DNA of 64,000 nucleotides from Catalinimonas alkaloidigena (lineage in GTDB: Bacteria; Bacteroidota; Bacteroidia; Cytophagales; Flexibacteraceae), in NCBI RefSeq assembly GCF_900100765.1, contig NZ_FNFO01000002.1, positions 744,001 through 808,000 of the forward strand. The letters are read 5' to 3'. A program made the translations under genes and the position numbers. Positions 40,797 to 53,413 of the stretch are shown here, piece after piece. Positions within the stretch are counted from its first letter, which is position 1. The number at the start of each line of letters is the position of its first letter. The notes below the pieces were generated by a model that saw nothing but the letters and a program-made list of their open reading frames with translations, did not search any database and was not told the origin of the DNA.

Positions 40797-41207
40797 ATGA
40801 AAAGCAAATACAAAGTTTACATCATCGAAGATAACCGTACCGAGGCGATGGTGATTCGCCTGGCGTTCAGCGGCATCGACAACATAGAAGTATACTATTT
40901 CGAGAGCGGACAGCAGTTGCTCGATTGCCTTCTGGAAAGCCGCCCCGACATTGTGATTATCGACCTGATGCTGCCAGATATCGACGGGTTGACGTTGCTG
41001 CGCAGGATTCGGGCGTATGACCAAAGCATCTACACCGTGGTAATGTCGGCGCAGGAGGACATTAACGTCATCAATGCAGTGCAGCGCGAAGGCGTGTTCA
41101 ACTATGTGGTGAAGAGCGATAGCTGCTTGCGTTATCTGAAGCAAGTCATCGAAAACCTGTTGCTGTTGCTGGAATCAAAACAGAAGGCAACGACCGACAA
41201 AGCGTAG
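40797..41207 (+). CDS. Stand-alone receiver domain protein
   Basis: The product has 136 residues. It has the acidic pair (IIEDN), phospho-acceptor Asp in VIIDLMLP, and Lys in YVVKSD. There is no output domain. It starts 1 bp after the hybrid kinase stop codon and may receive phosphate from its HPt domain, or work in the convergent chemosensory system. A terminator follows. Confidence 0.92.
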   Translation: MKSKYKVYIIEDNRTEAMVIRLAFSGIDNIEVYYFESGQQLLDCLLESRPDIVIIDLMLPDIDGLTLLRRIRAYDQSIYTVVMSAQEDINVINAVQREGVFNYVVKSDSCLRYLKQVIENLLLLLESKQKATTDKA

Positions 41208-41235
41208 CCAGAAATCATTCAACACGAAGGCATAT

Positions 41236-41270
41236 AAAAGCCCGCTTTTCAGAAGAAAAGCGGGCTTTTT
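41236..41270. terminator. Bidirectional terminator between convergent operons
   Basis: AAAAGCCCGCTTTT (41236-41249) and AAAAGCGGGCTTTT (41256-41269) form a perfect 14-bp stem with A-T flanks. It separates the kinase/receiver pair from the chemosensory operon ending at 41291. Confidence 0.9.
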
Positions 41271-41290: not shown

Positions 41291-44200
41291 TTAAAGTGGA
41301 TTCAGAAAGGCGAGCACCTGATGATGCTGGCTGGTGAAGACCGGAATCAACGTGGTCTGGACTTGTTGGCCAATGCTGTAGCGCAGGCGCATGCTGAGGG
41401 TTATGATCTGTACGTCGCCTCGTTGAATCTGTTCCACAAAATGCTTCTGGGCTTCCTTATCGGGAAAATCCAGGAGCGAGAGGAACGATTGATTCTCCAG
41501 CTCTTCGTGCGTGTAGCCGATGAACTGATGCGCAGAGGGGTTGACGTGCAGGATGTTGCCCTCGGCGTCTAAATGCAGCATCGGAAGCGAATCGTGTTCC
41601 ATCAAGCTGTTTAGAGGAATTGAGCCGGTTTGCCCTGCCTCTGCGACAATGTCGCCCAGTAGTTTCTCCATCAAGTCGACCTCCCGGTCGCTCTTGGTAT
41701 CGAGAATCGCATTTTTCATCCGTTCGCGCGCCAACGACTTCCGTAGTTCGCTCTCTTGCGCTACTTGTTGCGTCACGTCGAACAGAATTCCCAGATAGCG
41801 TTGCTTGGCGCCGTTGGGGGTATCCTCGCTCACCGGTACACGCGCAATGGTCGTATCGCCCCAGCACATGGTGCCGGTGGCACTGCGGTAAGGCAGCGTT
41901 TGGCGGAAAAGAGCTCCCTCTTGCGCAGTGGCCTGAATCACCGCCAGAATATTTTCCGCCTGTAAATCAGTGGCAATCAGGTCGGTCAACTTCAGCTTAT
42001 CGAGAGGCGCATCGGCCAGATTCATGCACTGCCGGAACGAATCGTTGAGGGCAAGCATCTTACCCTTATGGTCTATCTCGAAAATGCAGGTCGTCTGGTC
42101 GAGCATGTGGACACGCGTTTCCAGCTCAGCTTTTTGCGTACTGAGCGAGGCCTGCACCACTTTCAGTTCCGCTACCGTTTCCGACAGCTGTTCCTGATGC
42201 ATGCGCAGTTCGTCCTGTAATTTTCGCTGGTCGGTGATGTCGATGATCATCGTCATCACTTTGTAGACCTCGCCGGCCAGGTTCCGAATCGGGCTGAAGT
42301 TGGTGAGGCAGTAGCGAATTTCGTTTTCGCCGGTGCGATACGGGAGCAGTTCAGAGATCGATTCCCCCTCCTGAATTTTAGGCCAGATGCTCTCGTAAAT
42401 AGCGGGTTCTGCCTGTTCTTCTGCCAGAAGCTGCCACAGGTTCATCTTACGCAGGGCGCTTCGCTTCACACCCGTCATTTCTACAAAGGCGAGGTTGGCT
42501 TTGATCAAGTTGCCCGTCAGGTCGAGGTCCAGCATCGGGAAAGACTGACTCATGGCATTGATCTTACTGGTCAGATCCAGGTCTTTCTCTTTGTCGTCCG
42601 TCACGAACTGTGCAAACTGAATGATTTTATAAGGCTTGCCGTCCGTATCGAAAATGGGGTTATACGTGCCGTTCAGCCACACTTCGCGTCCGTTTTTCGC
42701 CATCCGTCGGTATTCGCCCCCGTGGTAGGAGCCACGCCGGAGGCTATCCCACAGCATTTCGAACTGGAGGCGGTTGGCTTCGTCCTGCGCAATTAACTGC
42801 GCCTCGGCAATGCCGATCATCTCATCACGCTCGTAGCCCATCACCGTCAGGTACATGTTGTTTACCTGCGTGATGTTGCCTTCCATGTCGAACTCGACGG
42901 TGGCGTTGGTCTTGTTAATCGCTTCGATAATGCACTGGCTCAGGTTGGTCTCTTCGCGCAGTTCTTCCAGACGTCGGTTCAACTCCTCTTGGGTGGCCTG
43001 AAGCTCTTCTGCATTCTGCTGCATTTCGCGTTCGGCCAGTTGCAGCTCAGCGTTCGAGCGGCGCGATTCTTCCAGCAGAAGGCTGGTCTGGCGATTGGTC
43101 CGAATCCCGGCGATGGTAACGCCGAGCGTTTCGCCCACTTCGCTCACAAATTCGATTTGGTACGGCTTAAACCGGTGGAAAGAAGCCAATTCGATGACGC
43201 CATACACCTGATCGTTCACTTTAATGGGAACCAGCAATACCGCGCGTGGCGGCGCGTCGCCCAGGCCGGAAGTGATGCTGATGTAACGCTCGGGCACTTC
43301 TTCCAGGTAGATGGTTTCGCCTTCTACGAAACACTGGCCGACAAGACCATCGCCGGGCGCAATGCGCTGCTCCAGAAACTTCTGTTTGTTGAAGGCATAA
43401 GTAGCTGCCTGTTCCAGAAAAATGTCGTCGCTGTTTTCGTCGTTGAGGAGAAATACCCCACCCTGGTTCGATTCCGTGTAGCGTACAAAGTGGCTGATAA
43501 ACGCGTACGCCATCTGCTCTGGCGTCGATTGCTGATGATCGCGGATAAGCTCCGACAAACGGGCCACGCCGTTGATGCGCCAGTTCCGAATCTTTTCTTC
43601 TTCGGCGACTTCCATCAGCTTATGACGCATGTCGTTCAGCGCATTGCCGAGCGCGTCTTGCTCGCCTGTCACCTCAAACGTCGCGTCGAACTTGCCTTCC
43701 CCAATGCTGTGTGCAAACGCTGCGGCATCGGTTACATGAGCCAGCAACTGCTGCAGACAAGCGCCCAACGCCGCCAGGGGACCGTGCGTCTGGAACGACG
43801 TTTCCATGTGTGCGTTACCGGAGGAGATATTCTGGAGGTGTAGCGTTAGCTTTTGCAACGGTTGCAAAACACGCTGGTACATCAACAGTGCCGCGCAGGC
43901 AACCAGCAGCAGGCCGGTGCACAAGGTCAGCATGACCAGTGCATTTCTGTTTCTGCGCGAAGCCGCCTGCGACTCGAGGAAACGAAGCTGGACGTTTTCC
44001 CAATGCTGGATGAGCGACGTAAGCGCCGCTTCCTGATCGCGGTATGCGCCTGACGTCGGATCTTGCAGTGCCGTGAGCCCACGTTGCAGGGCATCAATTT
44101 CTTTCCCAACCGCACCGGCCGTGAATTTTTGCAACGACTCAAGTGCTTCTTGCGCGGCTAGCGAAGTAGCCGTGGCGTACGTTTGTTGTCCGGTCTGGTG

Positions 44201-44368
44201 ATAGAGCAGGTAGTGACTGTGCACCTTCTCCATCGCCACACGGCCTCGCCAGAGCGCTTCCGTGCCCAAATGTTGGGTGCTGAATGCCAACCAGCACGCA
44301 ATGCCTAACAGAAAGGAAGCACCGGCCAGCAAGGCAAAGAATACAGAAGAAGTGCGTTCGTTCCTCAT
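41291..44368 (-). CDS. Membrane PAS/GAF sensor protein without output domain
   Basis: The product has 1025 residues. Membrane segments are at about 8-30 and 142-164, around a roughly 110-residue periplasmic helical domain. Then come HAMP-like linkers (165-260), GAF (270-420), a coiled coil (425-475) and four PAS-like domains (478-595, 600-715, 750-870, 925-1025). The chain ends with the last PAS domain. No HisKA, GGDEF, EAL or methyl-accepting signalling domain is visible. It is the last gene of the chemosensory operon, 6 bp after cheR. Confidence 0.88.
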   Translation of the reverse strand: MRNERTSSVFFALLAGASFLLGIACWLAFSTQHLGTEALWRGRVAMEKVHSHYLLYHQTGQQTYATATSLAAQEALESLQKFTAGAVGKEIDALQRGLTALQDPTSGAYRDQEAALTSLIQHWENVQLRFLESQAASRRNRNALVMLTLCTGLLLVACAALLMYQRVLQPLQKLTLHLQNISSGNAHMETSFQTHGPLAALGACLQQLLAHVTDAAAFAHSIGEGKFDATFEVTGEQDALGNALNDMRHKLMEVAEEEKIRNWRINGVARLSELIRDHQQSTPEQMAYAFISHFVRYTESNQGGVFLLNDENSDDIFLEQAATYAFNKQKFLEQRIAPGDGLVGQCFVEGETIYLEEVPERYISITSGLGDAPPRAVLLVPIKVNDQVYGVIELASFHRFKPYQIEFVSEVGETLGVTIAGIRTNRQTSLLLEESRRSNAELQLAEREMQQNAEELQATQEELNRRLEELREETNLSQCIIEAINKTNATVEFDMEGNITQVNNMYLTVMGYERDEMIGIAEAQLIAQDEANRLQFEMLWDSLRRGSYHGGEYRRMAKNGREVWLNGTYNPIFDTDGKPYKIIQFAQFVTDDKEKDLDLTSKINAMSQSFPMLDLDLTGNLIKANLAFVEMTGVKRSALRKMNLWQLLAEEQAEPAIYESIWPKIQEGESISELLPYRTGENEIRYCLTNFSPIRNLAGEVYKVMTMIIDITDQRKLQDELRMHQEQLSETVAELKVVQASLSTQKAELETRVHMLDQTTCIFEIDHKGKMLALNDSFRQCMNLADAPLDKLKLTDLIATDLQAENILAVIQATAQEGALFRQTLPYRSATGTMCWGDTTIARVPVSEDTPNGAKQRYLGILFDVTQQVAQESELRKSLARERMKNAILDTKSDREVDLMEKLLGDIVAEAGQTGSIPLNSLMEHDSLPMLHLDAEGNILHVNPSAHQFIGYTHEELENQSFLSLLDFPDKEAQKHFVEQIQRGDVQIITLSMRLRYSIGQQVQTTLIPVFTSQHHQVLAFLNPL

Positions 44369-44374
44369 GGGTAC

Positions 44375-45187
44375 TTAGTTCTTTTTGCGATAGATGCGCG
44401 TTTTGGGGTCGAACAACTCGAAGAGTTCTTGCGCCTGCGCAGGCATCAGATCATAATAGCCGATGATGAGAAATCCTCCGTCCACCAAGGATTCATGGAA
44501 GAGGCGAAGGGCTTTCATTTTCAGCGTTTCGTCGAAGTAAATCATCACGTTCCGACAGAATACCATCTCGAACTGCCCGACAGAAGGGTCGCACACCAGG
44601 TTATGGCGCCGAAACGTAATGTGGCGTTTGAACATGTCCCGGATGGTGCCCTCTTCACCGTCGATGTCGAAGTAGTGCTCCAGCTGTGCCTCGGGCCGAT
44701 AAGCCCGCATGGCTTTCGCATACCGGTTGAGGGTCATGAGCGGATACGTGCCCTGTTTGGCTTGCTCCAGCGCCGTCGCGCTCAGGTCAGTCGCCACGGC
44801 CTTGGCTCTGGAGAGCAAGTGCTTGTCTTTCAGCACAATGGCCATGGTATAAATTTCTTCGCCTGTAGAACAGCCCGAATGCCAGATGCGCAGCGGATTG
44901 GTATACAGGTTGGGCAACACCTGATCGCGCACGGCGACCCAGGCTTCGCTGTTCCGAAACATTTCGGTCAGGCCCACGGTGAGTTCGTCTACGCACTGCG
45001 GAAAAAACTCCCGATCACGCAGGATCTTTCCCCACAGACCCAGTGTAGAGCCTAAGTGATGGCGTGAAATCAGTCGACCGAATCCTCTGCGCAACGACTT
45101 CTTTTCGTAATTCGTGAAGTCTAGTCCATAACGATCGTTGATGGCGCGTGTCAACGACACCAACTCTTCGTCTGTGATATCAACCAT
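44375..45187 (-). CDS. cheR: Chemoreceptor methyltransferase CheR
   Basis: The product has 270 residues, the usual CheR length. The N-terminal domain has LTRAINDRYGLDF. The SAM-binding motif is in WHSGCSTGEE, and the later CRNVMIYF is typical. CheR methylates Glu residues on chemoreceptors. It lies between the CheC-like gene and the PAS/GAF gene. Confidence 0.97.
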   Translation of the reverse strand: MVDITDEELVSLTRAINDRYGLDFTNYEKKSLRRGFGRLISRHHLGSTLGLWGKILRDREFFPQCVDELTVGLTEMFRNSEAWVAVRDQVLPNLYTNPLRIWHSGCSTGEEIYTMAIVLKDKHLLSRAKAVATDLSATALEQAKQGTYPLMTLNRYAKAMRAYRPEAQLEHYFDIDGEEGTIRDMFKRHITFRRHNLVCDPSVGQFEMVFCRNVMIYFDETLKMKALRLFHESLVDGGFLIIGYYDLMPAQAQELFELFDPKTRIYRKKN

Positions 45188-45217: not shown

Positions 45218-45826
45218 TTAGTAGCTGATGTAATTGCTGATGCGTTTGGTATGAGCTTCGTCGGCCGTGAGGGTTTGAAGCGCCTCGAAAAAGCGTTCTT
45301 CCATGGTCCAGACTAACACAGGGCGTATCTGACGATCGCTTGAGGCCAGTTGGGCATCGAAAAGCACGGGACACCGATCCTGGTAAACGAATGCGGCCAG
45401 CGCATCGGCCGTTAGTTGTGTCCACTGGGGCACATCCCCATAGAGGTGCGTGTCCAGCAAATTGGCGAAGTGGGTGACGATCGAAGCAGTCACGATGTTG
45501 TCGAGTTCCAGCAGAAACGCCTGCGCGATTTCATCGGCCGGATCGGCATTGGGACACGCATGCGCGAGCAACTGGCGTGCTTCAGGTGCTGAAAAGATCA
45601 GGTGGCAGTGGCCTTTCAGCGCCCCTTTGATGGCGGTGGTCAACACAATGATGTCTTCCTGAGTGCGGTAGGGCGGAAGGGTGGCGGTATTGCATTGAAC
45701 AGACTCGGTATGTAAGGGTGCGTTTCCGGCCGTAAAGGAGCCAAACGCATCAATGGCGCTTTGCAGTCCCATGCGGATCAATTGCTGCACTATATCCCAA
45801 TCCGGTCCGTTTAATCGATTCTTCAT
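45218..45826 (-). CDS. CheC/CheX-like phosphatase
   Basis: The product has 202 residues. One site fits the CheC/CheX pattern (Glu-x2-Asn-x22-Pro): Glu107, Asn110 and Pro133. The residue expected as Asp or Ser four before Glu is Ala103. The N-terminal half has a matching fold element (TTAIKGALKGHCHLIF). CheC-type proteins remove phosphate from CheY. The missing position makes activity uncertain. Confidence 0.75.
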   Translation of the reverse strand: MKNRLNGPDWDIVQQLIRMGLQSAIDAFGSFTAGNAPLHTESVQCNTATLPPYRTQEDIIVLTTAIKGALKGHCHLIFSAPEARQLLAHACPNADPADEIAQAFLLELDNIVTASIVTHFANLLDTHLYGDVPQWTQLTADALAAFVYQDRCPVLFDAQLASSDRQIRPVLVWTMEERFFEALQTLTADEAHTKRISNYISY

Positions 45827-45865: not shown

Positions 45866-47782
45866 TTAGTTAGAGTTGGCTCCTTTTTTATGGCGAAAGA
45901 GCGCACGTAAAATGGCGGAGACATCCAGCACCAGGCAGACGTTCCCATTGCCCAGAATGGTCGCACCGCTGATCATGTCCAGGTTGTCGAGGGGTTCGCC
46001 CAGGGGCTTCTCGACGATCTCTTTCTGCTGTAGCAGTTTATCGACCACCAGCCCCACATAGCGGTTCTCTTTCGAGACAATGATGAGATCGAGTTTCTGC
46101 AGGTCATCTGTCTGGTCGAACGATTGGTGCAAGACCCCTTCGTCCGACAGATTACGGAGCGAGTTCAAGTGGAACAAATCCCGTAGGAAAATGACCGTAA
46201 TGGTTTTATCCAGGTAGGTGGCCATCAGCCCGTTGCCGACTTTGTGAATGTCTTTTTTGCGGAGGGAAACCACCGCTTCGGTGTACGAAAGCGGGATGGT
46301 AAACTCCTGTTGATTCAACTCGAACAGGAGCGCTCCCTTCACGGCCATGGACGAGGGCAGTGCCAGCGTAATGGTCGAACCCTGACCCGGCACGGTCGCG
46401 ATGTCGATGCGGCCGCCGATCGATTCGGTCGAGCGTTTCACCACGTCCATGCCTACACCACGTCCCGAAACGGACGTGACTTTTTCGGCACTGGAAAAAC
46501 CCGGATGGAAGATAAAGTGGAGTACTTCTTCGTCGGTCAGTTTTGCCGACAGTTCGGTGGTCAGTAACCCTTTCTCCAGGGCTTTTCGCCGGATGACGGG
46601 GGCGTTGATGCCTTTGCCGTCGTCGATGACGTCGATAAACACCAGGTCTTTTTCATTCCGGGCCCGGAGCGTAATGGTGCCTTTGGCGGGCTTTCCGGCC
46701 TGGCGACGCTCTTCGGCGCCTTCAATGCCGTGGCTCACAGCATTTCGGACCAGGTGAATGAGCGAATCGCTCATGATTTTCAGGACGTTCCGGTCGATCT
46801 CAATGTTGGTTCCCTCCAGCACCAGGTCCACCTGTTTGTCTTCCAGGTGAGCCACATCGCGCACGATGCGGTGGAACTTGTTGAACATGAACCCAATTTG
46901 CACCAGCCGTATGCCCATGATGCCGTACTGCAAATCGGACGTAATGCGGTGCAGCCGAGCGTAGATGTTGCTGCGCGAGCCCTGGGCTTGTTGCATGGCA
47001 ACCAGGCGGTCGCGTTCGATGATCAGTTCCCCTACCAGGTTGAGCAGGGCATCCAGTTTCCGTACGGGTACCTGAACCTGATCGGAGAAGGTGATTTTGG
47101 TCTGGTCTTCGGCGGGTGCAGCTTCCTCAGGAGCTGCCTGAGCCGCCTCTTCAGGTTGCGCAGGGGCCGCCGCAGCGGGTACGGAAGCCACCGCTTCAGA
47201 AGAGGCTTCGTCGGCTGATGGGGCCGGGTCTGCCGGGATCTCCTTGGTACTTTCTTCTTTTTTGCCCGTTGTACTGGCCGCGGGACGCTTGCTGGTTTTG
47301 CGCTTGCTCTTTTTAGGAGCCGGTGTTACTTCCGGTTCTGCCTGGGGCGCCGCCGCCGCTACGGGTGCGGCCGGAGGATCGGCGGGTTTCTCTGCCTGTC
47401 GGTCACGTGCATTGCGCAAAAAGACTTCCAGTTTGGTTTGGATGCCCCGGTAGCTGACGCGCTGGCCGGTCGAGAGTGCCTCGATCAGTTCGCCTAGCTT
47501 GTCGTTTGCACGGAACAGGCTGGCGAACAATTCATTATCCAGCTGGATACTTCCTTGCTTTACCTCGCTGAACAGATCTTCCATAACGTGGGCCAAGCCA
47601 GCAATGGCTTCGAATCCCATGCCCATGGCATTGCCTTTCAGGGTATGTGTGATCCGGAAAATCGCGTCGATGACCGACATTTTCTTCGGATCTTTTTCCA
47701 AGTCGCTGAACAGGCGATTCAACTCTTCGAAGTTTTCGAACGCTTCTGCCCGAAACAGCTCTTTGTATTCTTCTTCTTTCAT
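45866..47782 (-). CDS. cheA: Chemotaxis histidine kinase CheA
   Basis: The product has 638 residues. The HPt phosphorylation site is His46 (FRITHTLKGNAMG). Residues about 133-237 are an Ala/Pro/Glu/Lys-rich linker in the place of the CheY-binding P2 domain. The dimerisation domain, the ATP-binding domain (HLVRNAVSHGIE, DDGKGI, GRGVGMDVV) and a CheW-like C-terminal domain follow. It passes phosphate to CheY and CheB. Confidence 0.97.
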   Translation of the reverse strand: MKEEEYKELFRAEAFENFEELNRLFSDLEKDPKKMSVIDAIFRITHTLKGNAMGMGFEAIAGLAHVMEDLFSEVKQGSIQLDNELFASLFRANDKLGELIEALSTGQRVSYRGIQTKLEVFLRNARDRQAEKPADPPAAPVAAAAPQAEPEVTPAPKKSKRKTSKRPAASTTGKKEESTKEIPADPAPSADEASSEAVASVPAAAAPAQPEEAAQAAPEEAAPAEDQTKITFSDQVQVPVRKLDALLNLVGELIIERDRLVAMQQAQGSRSNIYARLHRITSDLQYGIMGIRLVQIGFMFNKFHRIVRDVAHLEDKQVDLVLEGTNIEIDRNVLKIMSDSLIHLVRNAVSHGIEGAEERRQAGKPAKGTITLRARNEKDLVFIDVIDDGKGINAPVIRRKALEKGLLTTELSAKLTDEEVLHFIFHPGFSSAEKVTSVSGRGVGMDVVKRSTESIGGRIDIATVPGQGSTITLALPSSMAVKGALLFELNQQEFTIPLSYTEAVVSLRKKDIHKVGNGLMATYLDKTITVIFLRDLFHLNSLRNLSDEGVLHQSFDQTDDLQKLDLIIVSKENRYVGLVVDKLLQQKEIVEKPLGEPLDNLDMISGATILGNGNVCLVLDVSAILRALFRHKKGANSN

Positions 47783-47832: not shown

Positions 47833-48873
47833 TCAGGACAGACAGCTTACCAGAAATCCGGCAATCTCCGGCAACGCGATTACCTGGCGGACCACGCCGG
47901 TTTCTACCGCGACGCGTGGCATGCCGTACACCACACTGGTGGCTTCGTTCTGAGCGATGGTGTACCCACCGCTTCGGTAAATGGCTTCCATGCCCCGGGT
48001 GCCGTCTTTGCCCATACCCGTCAGAATCACACCAATTGCTTTTTCTCCGTACACCTGCGCGACCGAAAGCATCAGGGCGTTAACGGACGGATTGTTGTAT
48101 TCCCGAAAAGTCTCTTCGGCCTGAGTCCACACCACGCGCCCTCTTCCAGAGGCTTTTAGCTTGGAGTTGCAGCCTCCTGGTGCTACCGTAATTTCGCCGG
48201 GCCGTATGGGGGTTCCTTCCTCGCCCACCCGCACTCGTAGGGGGGTAAGGGCATCGAGGCGCTCAGCAAAGGCCGGAATAAAGGCTTTGGGCATGTGCTG
48301 TGCAATCACCACCGGAATAGCCAGGTTGCTGGGCAACTGCGTAACGACCTGTTCTACCGCACCCGGTCCCCCTGTCGATGCACCGATCGCGATGATCTCG
48401 TAGGGAAGTTGACCCTGGAAAACGTGCGGCGCCTGGTTGGTGTGTTGCACCTGTTTGCGCAACAGACGCTGGCGGTTCACCCGCGACGCCTGTTTGACCT
48501 TGTGAACCAACTCATCCTGCAGCGTACGCAACCCACGCGACGCAGGCTTGGTCAGGTAATCGTACGCGCCCAGGCTCAGTGCCTCCATAATGGGACTCAG
48601 GTTGGTATTACCCAATGCACTGAGAATCAGAATGGGCGTAGGATGTTGTTGCATGACCTGGCGCACGGCATACAGTCCGTCATAATTGGCCATGGTCATG
48701 TCCAGCACCAGCACGTCCGGCTTAAGCTCCGTGGTTTTTTCTGCGGCCTCTTTACCATCGCAGGCCGTATCCACCACCTCAATCGACTCATCGTTGCGGA
48801 GGATGTCCGAAATCAGGAGCCGCATAAGGCTGGAGTCATCCGCCACTACAACTTGAATGGGAGACGCAGCCAT
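47833..48873 (-). CDS. cheB: Chemotaxis protein CheB, methylesterase
   Basis: The product has 346 residues. The receiver domain carries Asp in VLDMTMANYDG, a variant of the usual DxxMPxMDG. The methylesterase domain has Ser in GASTGGP, His in AQHMPK and Asp in TGMGKDG. CheB removes methyl groups that CheR adds to receptors. It lies 50 bp upstream of cheA in transcription order. Confidence 0.96.
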   Translation of the reverse strand: MAASPIQVVVADDSSLMRLLISDILRNDESIEVVDTACDGKEAAEKTTELKPDVLVLDMTMANYDGLYAVRQVMQQHPTPILILSALGNTNLSPIMEALSLGAYDYLTKPASRGLRTLQDELVHKVKQASRVNRQRLLRKQVQHTNQAPHVFQGQLPYEIIAIGASTGGPGAVEQVVTQLPSNLAIPVVIAQHMPKAFIPAFAERLDALTPLRVRVGEEGTPIRPGEITVAPGGCNSKLKASGRGRVVWTQAEETFREYNNPSVNALMLSVAQVYGEKAIGVILTGMGKDGTRGMEAIYRSGGYTIAQNEATSVVYGMPRVAVETGVVRQVIALPEIAGFLVSCLS

Positions 48874-48878
48874 GGTTC

Positions 48879-49244
48879 CTAGGCCATGATGCGATTGACG
48901 GCCTCCACGAGTTGTTCGGTCGTGAAAGGTTTTACGATGTAGTCGGAAGCGCCCAGGTTTAAACCTTCGTTGACTACCGACTGCTGTCCGACAGCACTGA
49001 TCATGATCACCCGCGACTCGATTTCCTCTTCGGTTTTCAGAATCCGCAGGATGTCCGTGCCGATCATGTCGGGCAGGATGTTGTCCAGGGTGATCAGGTC
49101 GGGCTGAAGCTCAAGTGCCATGTCGATGGCCGACTCGCCGTTGGCGGCTTGTCCTACCACTTCGTAGCCTGCTTCACTAAGTGCATCTTTGATCATCGTT
49201 CGCATGTACAGCGAATCGTCAACAATCAGAACTTTTTTTGCCAT
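48879..49244 (-). CDS. cheY: Chemotaxis response regulator CheY
   Basis: The product has 121 residues. The acidic pair Asp9-Asp10, phospho-acceptor Asp54 (TLDNILPD), Ser83 and Lys105 are in place. There is no output domain. It is the likely phosphate acceptor from CheA. It lies 5 bp upstream of cheB. Confidence 0.95.
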   Translation of the reverse strand: MAKKVLIVDDSLYMRTMIKDALSEAGYEVVGQAANGESAIDMALELQPDLITLDNILPDMIGTDILRILKTEEEIESRVIMISAVGQQSVVNEGLNLGASDYIVKPFTTEQLVEAVNRIMA

Positions 49245-49285: not shown

Positions 49286-49792
49286 TTATAAAGATTTAGC
49301 AACCTCCTGTGTCTCGCGGCGCGATAACATCGCCAAGGCGTCGATCAAAATGATCATGCGCTCTCCGCTCTTGACGATGCCCCGAATGGCCTGCTCTTCG
49401 GCTTCGGACGACAGCACTACGCTGGAGGCAGTGTCGATGTCGTGTTCGCCGATGGAGAGCGTATTCGGAACTTTGCGGACCAAAATGCCCACGCTCGCTT
49501 CCTGGCTTTCCAGCACCAGGGTGTATTTGGGCAGACTTTCGTCTGTGCTTTTGATGCCGAATTTCTTTTCCAGATCCAGGATGGCCAGCACGTTCCCGCG
49601 AATGTTGGCTACGCCTTTGATGTGATCCGGCGTTTGCGGAATGCGCGCTACGTTCGGCGTGAGCACCACTTCTTTGATCTGGTCGATGCTAAGGGCGTAC
49701 TCTTCTTCGCCCAGTCGGAAAACGACCAGTTGGATGCGTGGCCCACTGTTGCCTGCCTGTGGCTCTTTTTCTTTGCTAATGCTTTGTGCCAT
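49286..49792 (-). CDS. cheW: Chemotaxis coupling protein CheW
   Basis: The product has 168 residues. The CheW domain has VFRLGEEEYALSIDQIKEVV, HIKGVANIRGNVLAILDL and GILVRKVPNTLSI. It links the receptor to CheA. The first 20 residues are an extra hydrophilic extension. It starts 8 bp after the chemoreceptor stop codon. Confidence 0.96.
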   Translation of the reverse strand: MAQSISKEKEPQAGNSGPRIQLVVFRLGEEEYALSIDQIKEVVLTPNVARIPQTPDHIKGVANIRGNVLAILDLEKKFGIKSTDESLPKYTLVLESQEASVGILVRKVPNTLSIGEHDIDTASSVVLSSEAEEQAIRGIVKSGERMIILIDALAMLSRRETQEVAKSL

Positions 49793-49800
49793 AGGGTAGG

Positions 49801-52770
49801 TTATGCTTTCTTGAGTTTGAACTTAGACACGCCTTCGGTCAACTGGTTGGCAATCTCGGCCAGATTCTTACTGCTCTGCAGTACCTCGCTCATGCCCTGG
49901 TTCAGCTCCTGCGACGACGTAGCGATCTGTTCCGAACCGGCGGCGGTTTCTTCTGCCACCACCACGATGCTCTCGATGTTCTTCACAACCGTGTTGATGC
50001 TGTTGCGCTGCTGATCGGTTGCCTGCAAAATCTCTTTCGAGAGGTCGAGTGTCTCGGTGCTCGATTGCTGAATGCTTTGGAATACCTCTTCGGCATCGCG
50101 CGACGCTTTGTTACCGCTTTTCACGCTGGTTTCCATGTTGCCGATGGCCTTGCCCGCCAGGGTAATGTCTTTCTGTACTTCTTTGATGACCCGCTCAATG
50201 TCGACAGCCGACTTGCGCGAGTCTTCGGCCAGTTTCCGGATCTCTTCGGCGACTACCGCAAAGCCCCGTCCGGCGTCTCCGGCCCGTGCCGCTTCGATGG
50301 CTGCGTTCAGCGCCAACAGGTTGGTCTGGGAAGCAATGTCGGTGATGACGTTCAACGTGCGGGCGATCTCCTCGGAGCGCTCGGTCAGAATCTCGATGGA
50401 TTTGGCCGTATCTTGTGCCGAAGTCTGAATTTCGCCCATGTTTTCTACGACCTTGTTGACGATCTTCAAGCCATCGTTGCAGCTCGACTGACCTTTTTCG
50501 GCCGCCTTGTTGATGATGTTGGCTTTGGAACCCATGTCGACCGACGAGTTCATAACGTGCTCTACCAGCTTCGACGATTCATCCGTTTTGGTCGCCTGCT
50601 GCTGTGCGCCTTCGGCCATCTGAGCGATGGCGGACGCCACTTCCTGCGTGGTATTCTGCATGCTTTCGCCCGTGGTCAGCATCTCTTCCGAGGCGGTGGC
50701 GATCACCGTCACGATCTGCGAAATGTTGCTGAGTAGCTGGTTCATGTTGCGCATGGCCACGTTCAGCGCGTTGCCCATATCGGCCAGATCTCCCTCCGCT
50801 TCCATGCTGAAGGCTTCGGTCAGGTTGCCCATGGAAAGCTCGGTGACGATGCGGTTGATTTCCATTACCGGGTTGGCGATGGACTCCAGCAGGTCGTTCA
50901 GCGACTCGACGAGGTTTTCCCAGGCGCCTTCTGCGTTTTTGAGTGACAGGCGGGCCGATAGTTGCCCTTCGCGTCCTGCCAGGGTGACGACCCGGTTCAC
51001 CTCGCCGATAATCATTTTGAGGGTATCGCGTAGCGCCAGGTTGTCCTGAATCATTTGCCCCACATTACCCTCGGCCTTGACCTGAATGTCGGCGTCGAAG
51101 TTGCCACGGCGCAGTTGGGAAATGAAGTCGCGGATGGCGTTGAGTGCTACCGTAAACTCGGTAACGTCCGTGGCGTACTTGACCACCTTGAACGGCTTGC
51201 CGTTGAGGTCGAGAATCGGGTTGTAAGTCGCCTGGATGTAAATTTCCCGGCCCCCTTTGCCCAGTCGCTTGTAAGTGGCCGAGTCAAATTCGCCCCGGTT
51301 CAATTTCTCCCAGAACTCCCGGTACTCGACGCTGGCAGCATAGGCCGGCTCGCAGAACATGCGGTGATGCTTGCCCACGACTTCCGAAGCGGAATAACCC
51401 AGCGTACGCAGGAAGTTTTCGTTGGCGGAACGGATCGTACCGTCCAGGTTAAATTCGATGACGGCCTGTGCTTTGCTCACCGCTTCCAACTGACCTCTGT
51501 AATCGGTGTTGCGCAGTTTGTCTTCGGTGATGTCGGTCGCCAGCTTGATAATTTTGGTTGGCTTGCCCTGCGCGTCCAAAATGGGTGTGTAGTTGGCCAG
51601 CAGCCAAACTTCCGAACCGTCTTTGGTAAGGCGTTTGAATTCGCCCGAATGCGTTTTGCCCTGACTCAGATCAAGCCAGAACTGCTTGTATGCGTCGCTG
51701 TTGGCGTAGGTAGGATGGCAGAACATGCGGTGATGCTGTCCCTTGATCTCATCGAGCGAGTACTGCATCGTGTTCAGGAACAGATCGTTGGCCGTAACAA
51801 TGTTGCCGTGCAGGTCGAACTCAATAAACGCAGAAGTGGCGTTGATGGCCGACATCTGGCCGCGCATCTCTTCGCGTTGCACTTCTGCCATTTGCAGCAG
51901 TTTGTCGATCTCCGCCTCCTTCTTTTTGGTCGGCGTGATGTCCTGCGCAAACTTGATGACCTTGTAGACGTTGCCGTTAACGTCGAGAATCGGGTTGTAG
52001 CTACCGAAAATCCAGACTGCTTCTCCCGCCTTGTTCAGGCGTTTGAATTCGCCGGTCGCAAACTTGCCTTCGCCCAGGTCGCGCCAGAACTGACGGTACG
52101 CTTCCGACGTGCGGTCTTCCGGCGTTACAAACAACTCGTGATGCTGTCCCTCTACCTCGCTCAGGGTGTAGCCCATCAATTCGAGAAAAGGAGCATTGGC
52201 GGTGCGAATGGTGCCGTCTGTTTCGAATTCGATCACGGCATTCGAGCGGTGGATGGCATCGATCTGCGCGTTGATTTCGTTCGTCTCGGCTTTACGCGCG
52301 GTGATGTCGCTGGCAATTTTAACGATTTTGACGACCTGCCCTTGGTTATCTTTGATGGGCATGTAACTGCCCTGTACCCAAACTACTTTGTTGTTTTTGT
52401 TGACACGGCTGAACTCCCCATTCTTGGCCTGACCTTCGCGCAGCCCTTTCCAGAAATCTTTGTAAGCCTGCGAGGATGCATCGGCCGGTTTAACAAACAT
52501 GCTGTGGTGTTTGCCTTGTACCTCTTCCAGCGAATAGCCCATCACCTTCAGGAAAAGCGAATTTGCCGTCTGGATGAGTCCGTCGGGAGTGAATTCAATT
52601 AAGGCAAAAGAAGCGTGTACAGCTTGTAACTGGCCGGCGGTCTGGTCTTGTATAGCAACCATTTCCGCAATGGTTTGCCGAAGTTCTGTTTCAACCGCTT
52701 TGAGTTCAGCTAGTTCGGCACTGGAAGGATCCTGAGGTTTGGTAGCTACAGCGCGTTTGGAAGTTGCCAT
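49801..52770 (-). CDS. Soluble chemoreceptor with four tandem PAS domains
   Basis: The product has 989 residues from ATG 52770 and no membrane segment. The PAS domains lie at about 48-158, 172-280, 307-415 and 430-538. Each carries a short GxHHxMF-like motif (for example GKHHSMF and GQHHRMF), as in the redox- or heme-type PAS domains of BdlA/Aer relatives. HAMP-like linkers and a methyl-accepting signalling domain (690-989, with the hairpin tip near 801-849, [16 protein letters not shown]) follow. The C-terminus lacks a CheR-docking pentapeptide. Confidence 0.96.
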
Positions 52771-53413
52771 AAAGGGAATGCAAAATGAGTTTGGTGATAT
52801 AAAATGCTTTGTGGTTTTGCTTGCCCGAGAGCTTTGCAATTCCTGCACTCAAAAGAATCTATTTTACATGGATTAGATTTTGTATTCCCTGATACTTAGT
52901 GCCTTGCGTAAGAAAAACGGGGAAGAGGCAGGATTGGCAGAGGTGGCCTCGTAAAAAGTTAGCTTACAGGCGATTAAGGGAGATGCGCACGTTTCTACCC
53001 TGACAAAAAAGCGGGAAATACATTCTGTTAGTAGAAAAAAAGCTAGCTAAAAGGCTGAGCTGGTGCCTGTTTCGTCATTTATATTACCTGTTTTGTAGAA
53101 ATTGACTCGGGTTTTCGGAAGCCGATGTCAGGCAGTTTGTAAGAAAAATGCGCTGCTGTAGCGAAGAAATGAACCAGGACCGTGGCGCGTGCAGGCTGCG
53201 TCGGGCGGAGCGGCGAGAGCGCGGCCGCAACCCAGGGGTAAAACGGGCCATGCGCAGTGGGGAACCGGGTGGCAACCGGCGGCGATCGGTTCGGCAGGCA
53301 GCAGGTTACCTAGTTTTGTACAACGCCTTTGCGGCACATCTGCCCTTTTTAGGCACCGCCGGACGTGCACCGCAGCGGATTTTGCTTACATTCCGGGACC
53401 AGACAGCGGCACC
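52771..53413. other. Intergenic region upstream of the chemosensory operon
   Basis: The chemosensory operon and the saccharopine dehydrogenase gene are divergent here. I see no convincing gene in the 643 bp. The only clear signal is TAGTTTTG at 53311-53318 for the dehydrogenase side. I find no good -7 element for the chemosensory side. Confidence 0.5.
53311..53318 (+). promoter_or_regulatory. Probable -7 element of the saccharopine dehydrogenase gene
   Basis: TAGTTTTG matches TAnnTTTG exactly. A transcript would start near 53324, leaving about 90 nt of leader before ATG 53414, which supports that start over the open frame extending to 53189. Confidence 0.45.

Follow-up and report, generated by a model that had tools for sequence, protein, structure and literature searches.

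An outputless membrane sensor encoded in the che operons of many Cytophagales and its possible tuning by CheR

The window, a stretch of 64,000 nucleotides from Catalinimonas alkaloidigena, contains a che operon on the minus strand in the order MCP, CheW, CheY, CheB, CheA, CheC-like protein and CheR, followed by a last gene that encodes a membrane sensor. The cheR stop (44375) and the ATG of the sensor gene (44368) are separated by 6 nt (GTACCC), and the gene belongs to the che operon, so the preliminary description was right to place it 6 bases after cheR and to expect its product to be made with the Che proteins. The features of the locus are as follows.

40797-41207, plus strand: response-regulator gene, convergent to the sensor gene
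About 41233..41270, no strand assigned: GC-rich inverted repeat flanked by A/T-rich sequence, probably a bidirectional terminator (read from the sequence; an automatic terminator scan was silent)
41291..44368, minus strand: outputless sensor of 1025 aa with ATG start, TM-(helical periplasmic)-HAMP-like-GAF-S-helix-PAS x4
42950..43165, minus strand: S-helix after the GAF domain, residues about 402-473, including EELQATQEE at 454-462
44375..45187, minus strand: cheR, che-type methyltransferase, 6 nt upstream of the sensor gene
45218..45826, minus strand: divergent CheC-family CheY-P phosphatase (no Pfam match; second ExxN motif kept, first degenerate)
45866..47782, minus strand: cheA
47833..48873, minus strand: cheB
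48879..49244, minus strand: cheY
49286..49792, minus strand: cheW
49801..52848, minus strand: MCP with four PAS, HAMP and MA domains (methylation-like motifs at residues 966 and 973)

Pfam recognised a GAF domain in the sensor at residues 282-419 and four PAS stretches within 494-1022, while a HAMP match at 163-185 stayed below the cut-off; this HAMP-like region belongs to the module conserved in the family. Hydropathy placed TM segments at 9-27 and 144-162, with a helical stretch enclosed between them. The AlphaFold model (mean pLDDT 77) consists of a helical N-terminal region, the GAF domain, a long helix at 402-469 and four PAS folds, and the chain ends with strand 1016-1024, the last of the fourth PAS. 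The architecture described earlier, a helical periplasmic domain, a HAMP-like region, GAF and four PAS domains and then a stop, was confirmed. The best PDB matches in Foldseek were tandem-PAS and GAF sensors (DosP, MmoS, PpsR, NifL and phytochromes). TM-scores over the full chain were low, as the model leaves the relative placement of the domains uncertain (pTM 0.36). Binding of FAD or heme by PAS-1 was weighed from the motifs of Aer, NifL and BdlA, and the support was too thin for a claim.

No output domain was found in the sensor by Pfam at E<=1, whether kinase, cyclase, SpoIIE phosphatase or MA (MCPsignal), and the HisKA-CA-REC output of the RsbK type was likewise absent in Pfam. NCBIfam models matched the GAF, coiled-coil and PAS parts; all except a PAS domain model stayed far below their cut-offs. 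A hidden output domain in residues 740-1025 was ruled out by Pfam, NCBIfam, the structure model and Foldseek; the model consists of PAS folds to the end of the chain, in keeping with the claim that the protein stops without an output domain. Histidine kinases, cyclases and phosphatases of the PAS/GAF kind share the input domains of this sensor, but only they carry an output domain. Truncation or a frameshift at the 3' end of the gene was also ruled out, since the convergent response-regulator gene lies 83 nt away, the inverted repeat lies between the two directly 3' of the sensor stop, and relatives end alike. Relatives with SpoIIE or HisKA/REC ends do exist, and the sensor could in principle be a functionless leftover of a hybrid kinase or phosphatase, in decay since the loss of its catalytic end. 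However, the long frame is intact, the synteny is conserved, and several distant relatives have their stop at the corresponding position of a C-terminal PAS, and we regard such decay as very improbable.

The MCP of the operon was the sole MCPsignal protein in a genome-wide search of the 7.1 Mb genome, and Pfam recognised no membrane sensor domain in it. The same genome is rich in PAS/GAF sensors, and its three long proteins that contain CheR include at least one CheB-CheR fusion (L084). The CheC-like neighbour scored far below the curated cut-off of the NCBIfam CheC model (E 3.4e-5), and its structure model matches Thermotoga CheC (2f9z_A, E 1.8e-10, TM 0.70); across the aligned relatives the second ExxN motif never varies, and the first is degenerate in most. 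Because no flagellin match was found in the genome and the T9SS/gliding genes sprA and gldN are present, flagella are most likely not what the Che system steers.

To read che clusters independently of the sensor, the CheC-like protein was used as bait in 390 Cytophagales genomes, of which 126 were positive. A HAMP-GAF-S-helix-PAS protein was encoded within the che cluster in 17 genera from 9 families of Cytophagales (the window, L028, L032/L076, L034/L039, L035, L040/L051, L044/L052, L045, L049, L050, L057, L058, L060, L062/L065/L067, L066, L068/L080 and L069). The general order is MCP-CheW-CheY-CheB-CheA-CheC-[sensor]-CheR, with the sensor gene usually between cheC and cheR; in the window and in Agaribacillus (L097) it comes after cheR. 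A sequence-based search of named genomes agreed, with the sensor found in Fulvivirga, Marivirga, Chryseotalea, Chryseolinea, Rhodocytophaga, Xanthocytophaga and others. These relatives were found by an alignment-based scan of genome contigs, whereas a scan with a single protein gave none. Most of the 54 relatives found by sequence alone adjoin cheR, including Bacteroidales loci without cheA in the stretch examined. No output domain was found in the che-linked relatives that were scanned. The window sensor has the traits of this set: a place beside cheC and cheR, the HAMP-GAF-PAS module and no output domain. The outputless membrane sensor is therefore a conserved member of the che operon in many Cytophagales, and the search of other cheR operons proposed in the preliminary description did recover the same kind of protein there. 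The helical periplasmic domain lies outside the conserved core, because most che-linked orthologues have a TM hairpin only. We found no literature on this che operon with a sensor gene, which is a weak negative as most subscription papers were outside our coverage.

The sensor gene and cheR tend to occur together. Most clusters without cheR, of the Hymenobacteraceae-like (f12) and Flammeovirga-like (f18) kinds, have no sensor gene either, and no che-type CheR was found anywhere in the searched genomes of these kinds (che-type matches scored at least 377 bits and the next group at most 295 bits). In two Thermoflexibacter-like genomes (G061 and G137) the cluster has the sensor gene and no cheR, and a che-type CheR is encoded elsewhere. 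Fisher tests of the co-occurrence gave p values of 0.003 by genus and 1e-6 by genome. We do not count these values as evidence, because the CheA tree offers just two independent pairs on supported branches and a pairwise test on it has no power. Statistical co-evolution of the sensor gene with CheR was dropped, as their co-occurrence is inseparable from shared ancestry. Among the clusters without cheR, those of the Hymenobacteraceae-like kind (L027, L043, L071-L075 and L081) have very long MCPs, and the one scanned (1452 aa, from L043) has about ten HAMP domains where other MCPs carry PAS arrays. The Flammeovirga-like MCPs (L036/L038, L046 and L083) are about 1840-2090 aa long with 11-13 PAS domains, in clusters that lack both cheR and cheB.

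A sensor encoded in this position may be a co-receptor for the soluble MCP array, or its tether at the membrane: PAS-PAS or coiled-coil contacts with the MCP would dock the array and add inputs, and CheR would be a mere neighbour. Pfam finds no membrane sensor domain in the only MCP of the genome, the PAS domains of MCP and sensor are closely related (143 and 154 bits with a PAS1 model), and the orthologues retain the TM hairpin even where the periplasmic domain is missing. On the other hand, the Hymenobacteraceae-like and Flammeovirga-like clusters keep MCP, CheW, CheA and CheC without the sensor gene, and HAMP/GAF proteins encoded outside che loci have similar PAS domains too. We consider a tether unlikely, and rank it second, behind tuning by CheR and CheB with output by contact.

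The HAMP-GAF-helix module is so common in Cytophagales that a search of 59 relatives yielded hundreds of matches. Most were partial, and 15 were in the window genome (14 besides the window sensor). Outputless HAMP-GAF-PAS proteins are also numerous away from che genes in Cytophagales genomes. That homologues lie mostly away from che genes, the outcome named beforehand as speaking against a Che-linked role, is untrue of the close relatives and true of the very large wider family. Che-linked proteins clustered strongly in a tree built from the module (3 changes, compared to 16 expected from shuffles). A single clade of all 24 che-linked proteins was rejected, though weakly (p-AU 0.033, one branch of the set being very long), and the window sensor fell in a supported set (97/86) of 14 che-linked rows and 2 others. 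For the many outputless proteins away from che genes, partners elsewhere must exist, and by the same token the output of the window sensor might be a separate protein outside the Che array, such as a kinase or phosphatase encoded elsewhere, with the operon merely co-expressing the sensor. The fixed place of the gene inside the che operon across 9 families speaks against this, and we think it quite improbable.

The type of sensor was earlier said to be one that could not be named. This was an overstatement, because TM-HAMP-GAF-S-helix with an adjacent gene of CheR type is the module of RsbK and RsbM. In Bacillus cereus, membrane-bound RsbK is a CHASE3-HAMP-GAF-S-helix-kinase-receiver protein that controls sigma B; the CheR-type RsbM encoded beside it methylates its S-helix after GAF, and RsbK-like kinases have been reported from ten phyla (PMC4574943; PMC12848376). 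At the level of domain architecture, RsbK and the window sensor share a membrane position, a helical extracytoplasmic region, a HAMP or HAMP-like region, GAF and S-helix. The CheR-type gene is adjacent in both, 6 nt upstream here and adjacent in most orthologues. However, RsbK goes on to HK-CA-REC whereas the window sensor goes on to four PAS and then stops, and only the latter is surrounded by a complete che operon that includes CheB, CheA, CheW and MCP.

The neighbourhood of CheR and this module extends beyond che operons, where the pattern carries more weight than the co-occurrence of sensor gene and cheR. Twenty stand-alone cheR loci away from cheA were chosen, one per genome and blind to their neighbours, and a HAMP/GAF-module protein was encoded within four genes in 17 of them. 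Most of these 17 are CheR-CheB-GAF-HAMP-GAF-PAS-SpoIIE arrays, and some have HisKA; two further loci outside the blind set (L092 and L093) had no such neighbour. In the window genome all three stand-alone cheR genes, that of the che operon included, lie beside HAMP/GAF proteins. The Cytophagales CheR-CheB-GAF-[dCache]-HAMP-GAF-PAS-SpoIIE arrays (e.g. G000:C1:687-694 kb) share with the window locus a HAMP-GAF-S-helix module beside CheR and CheB; unlike it, they end in a SpoIIE phosphatase and have no CheA, CheW or MCP alongside.

The heptad pair [EQ][EQ]xx[ASTG][ASTG]x[EQ][EQ] is the general form of chemoreceptor methylation regions. EELQATQEE, in the S-helix, is the only match to it in the window sensor; the window MCP has two, and in the sensor family the S-helix after GAF often reads EEL.ATQEE. 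The motif lay in the S-helix of 34 of 81 proteins, compared to about 1.5 expected from shuffles (16 of 37 che-linked proteins, 0.6 expected; 18 of 44 others, 0.9 expected), and only once elsewhere in the 81 proteins (61,705 residues). A methylation region in the S-helix is suggested by this, and we go no further because the pattern was written after the sequence had been seen and the shuffles remove heptad order and ignore shared descent. More than half of the proteins lack the motif, and it is equally frequent in relatives outside che operons. MCPs resemble the window sensor in being membrane sensors with a HAMP-like region, a che operon and methylation-like heptads; the sensor, however, has no MA/MCPsignal hairpin domain and therefore no canonical contact with CheA/CheW.

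Of CheA, CheW and CheR as putative partners, circumstantial evidence points to CheR first, and the position, family and helix sequence of the sensor suggest that CheR tunes it as it does ordinary chemoreceptors. Our leading reading, which we hold tentatively, is an accessory sensor in the membrane that serves the Che array, acts by contact and is tuned by CheR/CheB. In build it would correspond to an RsbK-type receptor reduced to its sensory front half, with no kinase, and its TM segments would hold it in the membrane. Signals would enter through the GAF domain and the PAS tandem, and in this species also through the helical periplasmic domain, and with no enzyme of its own the sensor would pass them on by protein contact. 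The S-helix after GAF would be the part bound, and probably methylated, by the CheR (and CheB) of the operon, so that CheR could couple the state of the sensor to the adaptation of the CheA/CheW/soluble-MCP array. Methylation, contact partner and ligands are all inferred. Against tuning by CheR, the MCP of the operon is already a normal CheR client, some clusters have cheR without the sensor gene (L024, L026, L042, L061 and L064), and one genome (G179) has the sensor gene and no che-type CheR.

Chemosensory systems are usually described as MCPs together with CheA, CheW, CheY, CheB, CheR and CheC. If in one widespread class an additional membrane sensor without output is a fixed component, surveys based on MCPs miss a protein that carries some of the input, and perhaps some of the adaptation. 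A front half of TM-HAMP-GAF-S-helix with a CheR-type neighbour was known from RsbK/RsbM; what is added here is its occurrence without a kinase and inside a whole che operon. It is conceivable, if rather doubtful, that an outputless non-MCP sensor in the membrane is a second methyl-accepting receptor of a CheA system, with its S-helix methylated by the CheR/CheB of the operon, and that it feeds into adaptation or activity, in bacteria without flagella whose array has a soluble protein as its only MCP.

HAMP-GAF helices also lie beside CheR in the CheA-less arrays of Cytophagales, which leads to a testable rule that an S-helix after GAF is a CheR substrate. These arrays, CheR-CheB-GAF-(dCache)-HAMP-GAF-PAS-SpoIIE with a small downstream gene, are widespread (L084:2330-9062 on C1 of the window genome; L148-L167) and have no MCP beside CheR and CheB. 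Elsewhere in the window genome (L086:5338-12070), CheR and CheB adjoin a hybrid kinase, NIT-HAMP-GAF-HisKA-HATPase-REC x3, in an RsbK/RsbM-like arrangement. In Bacteroidales (L116-L133), the neighbours of CheR are an outputless HAMP-GAF-PAS protein, a small protein with GAF and a GAF-PAS-SpoIIE protein, and in rumen genomes (L125, L126 and L128) a full che cluster adjoins this locus.
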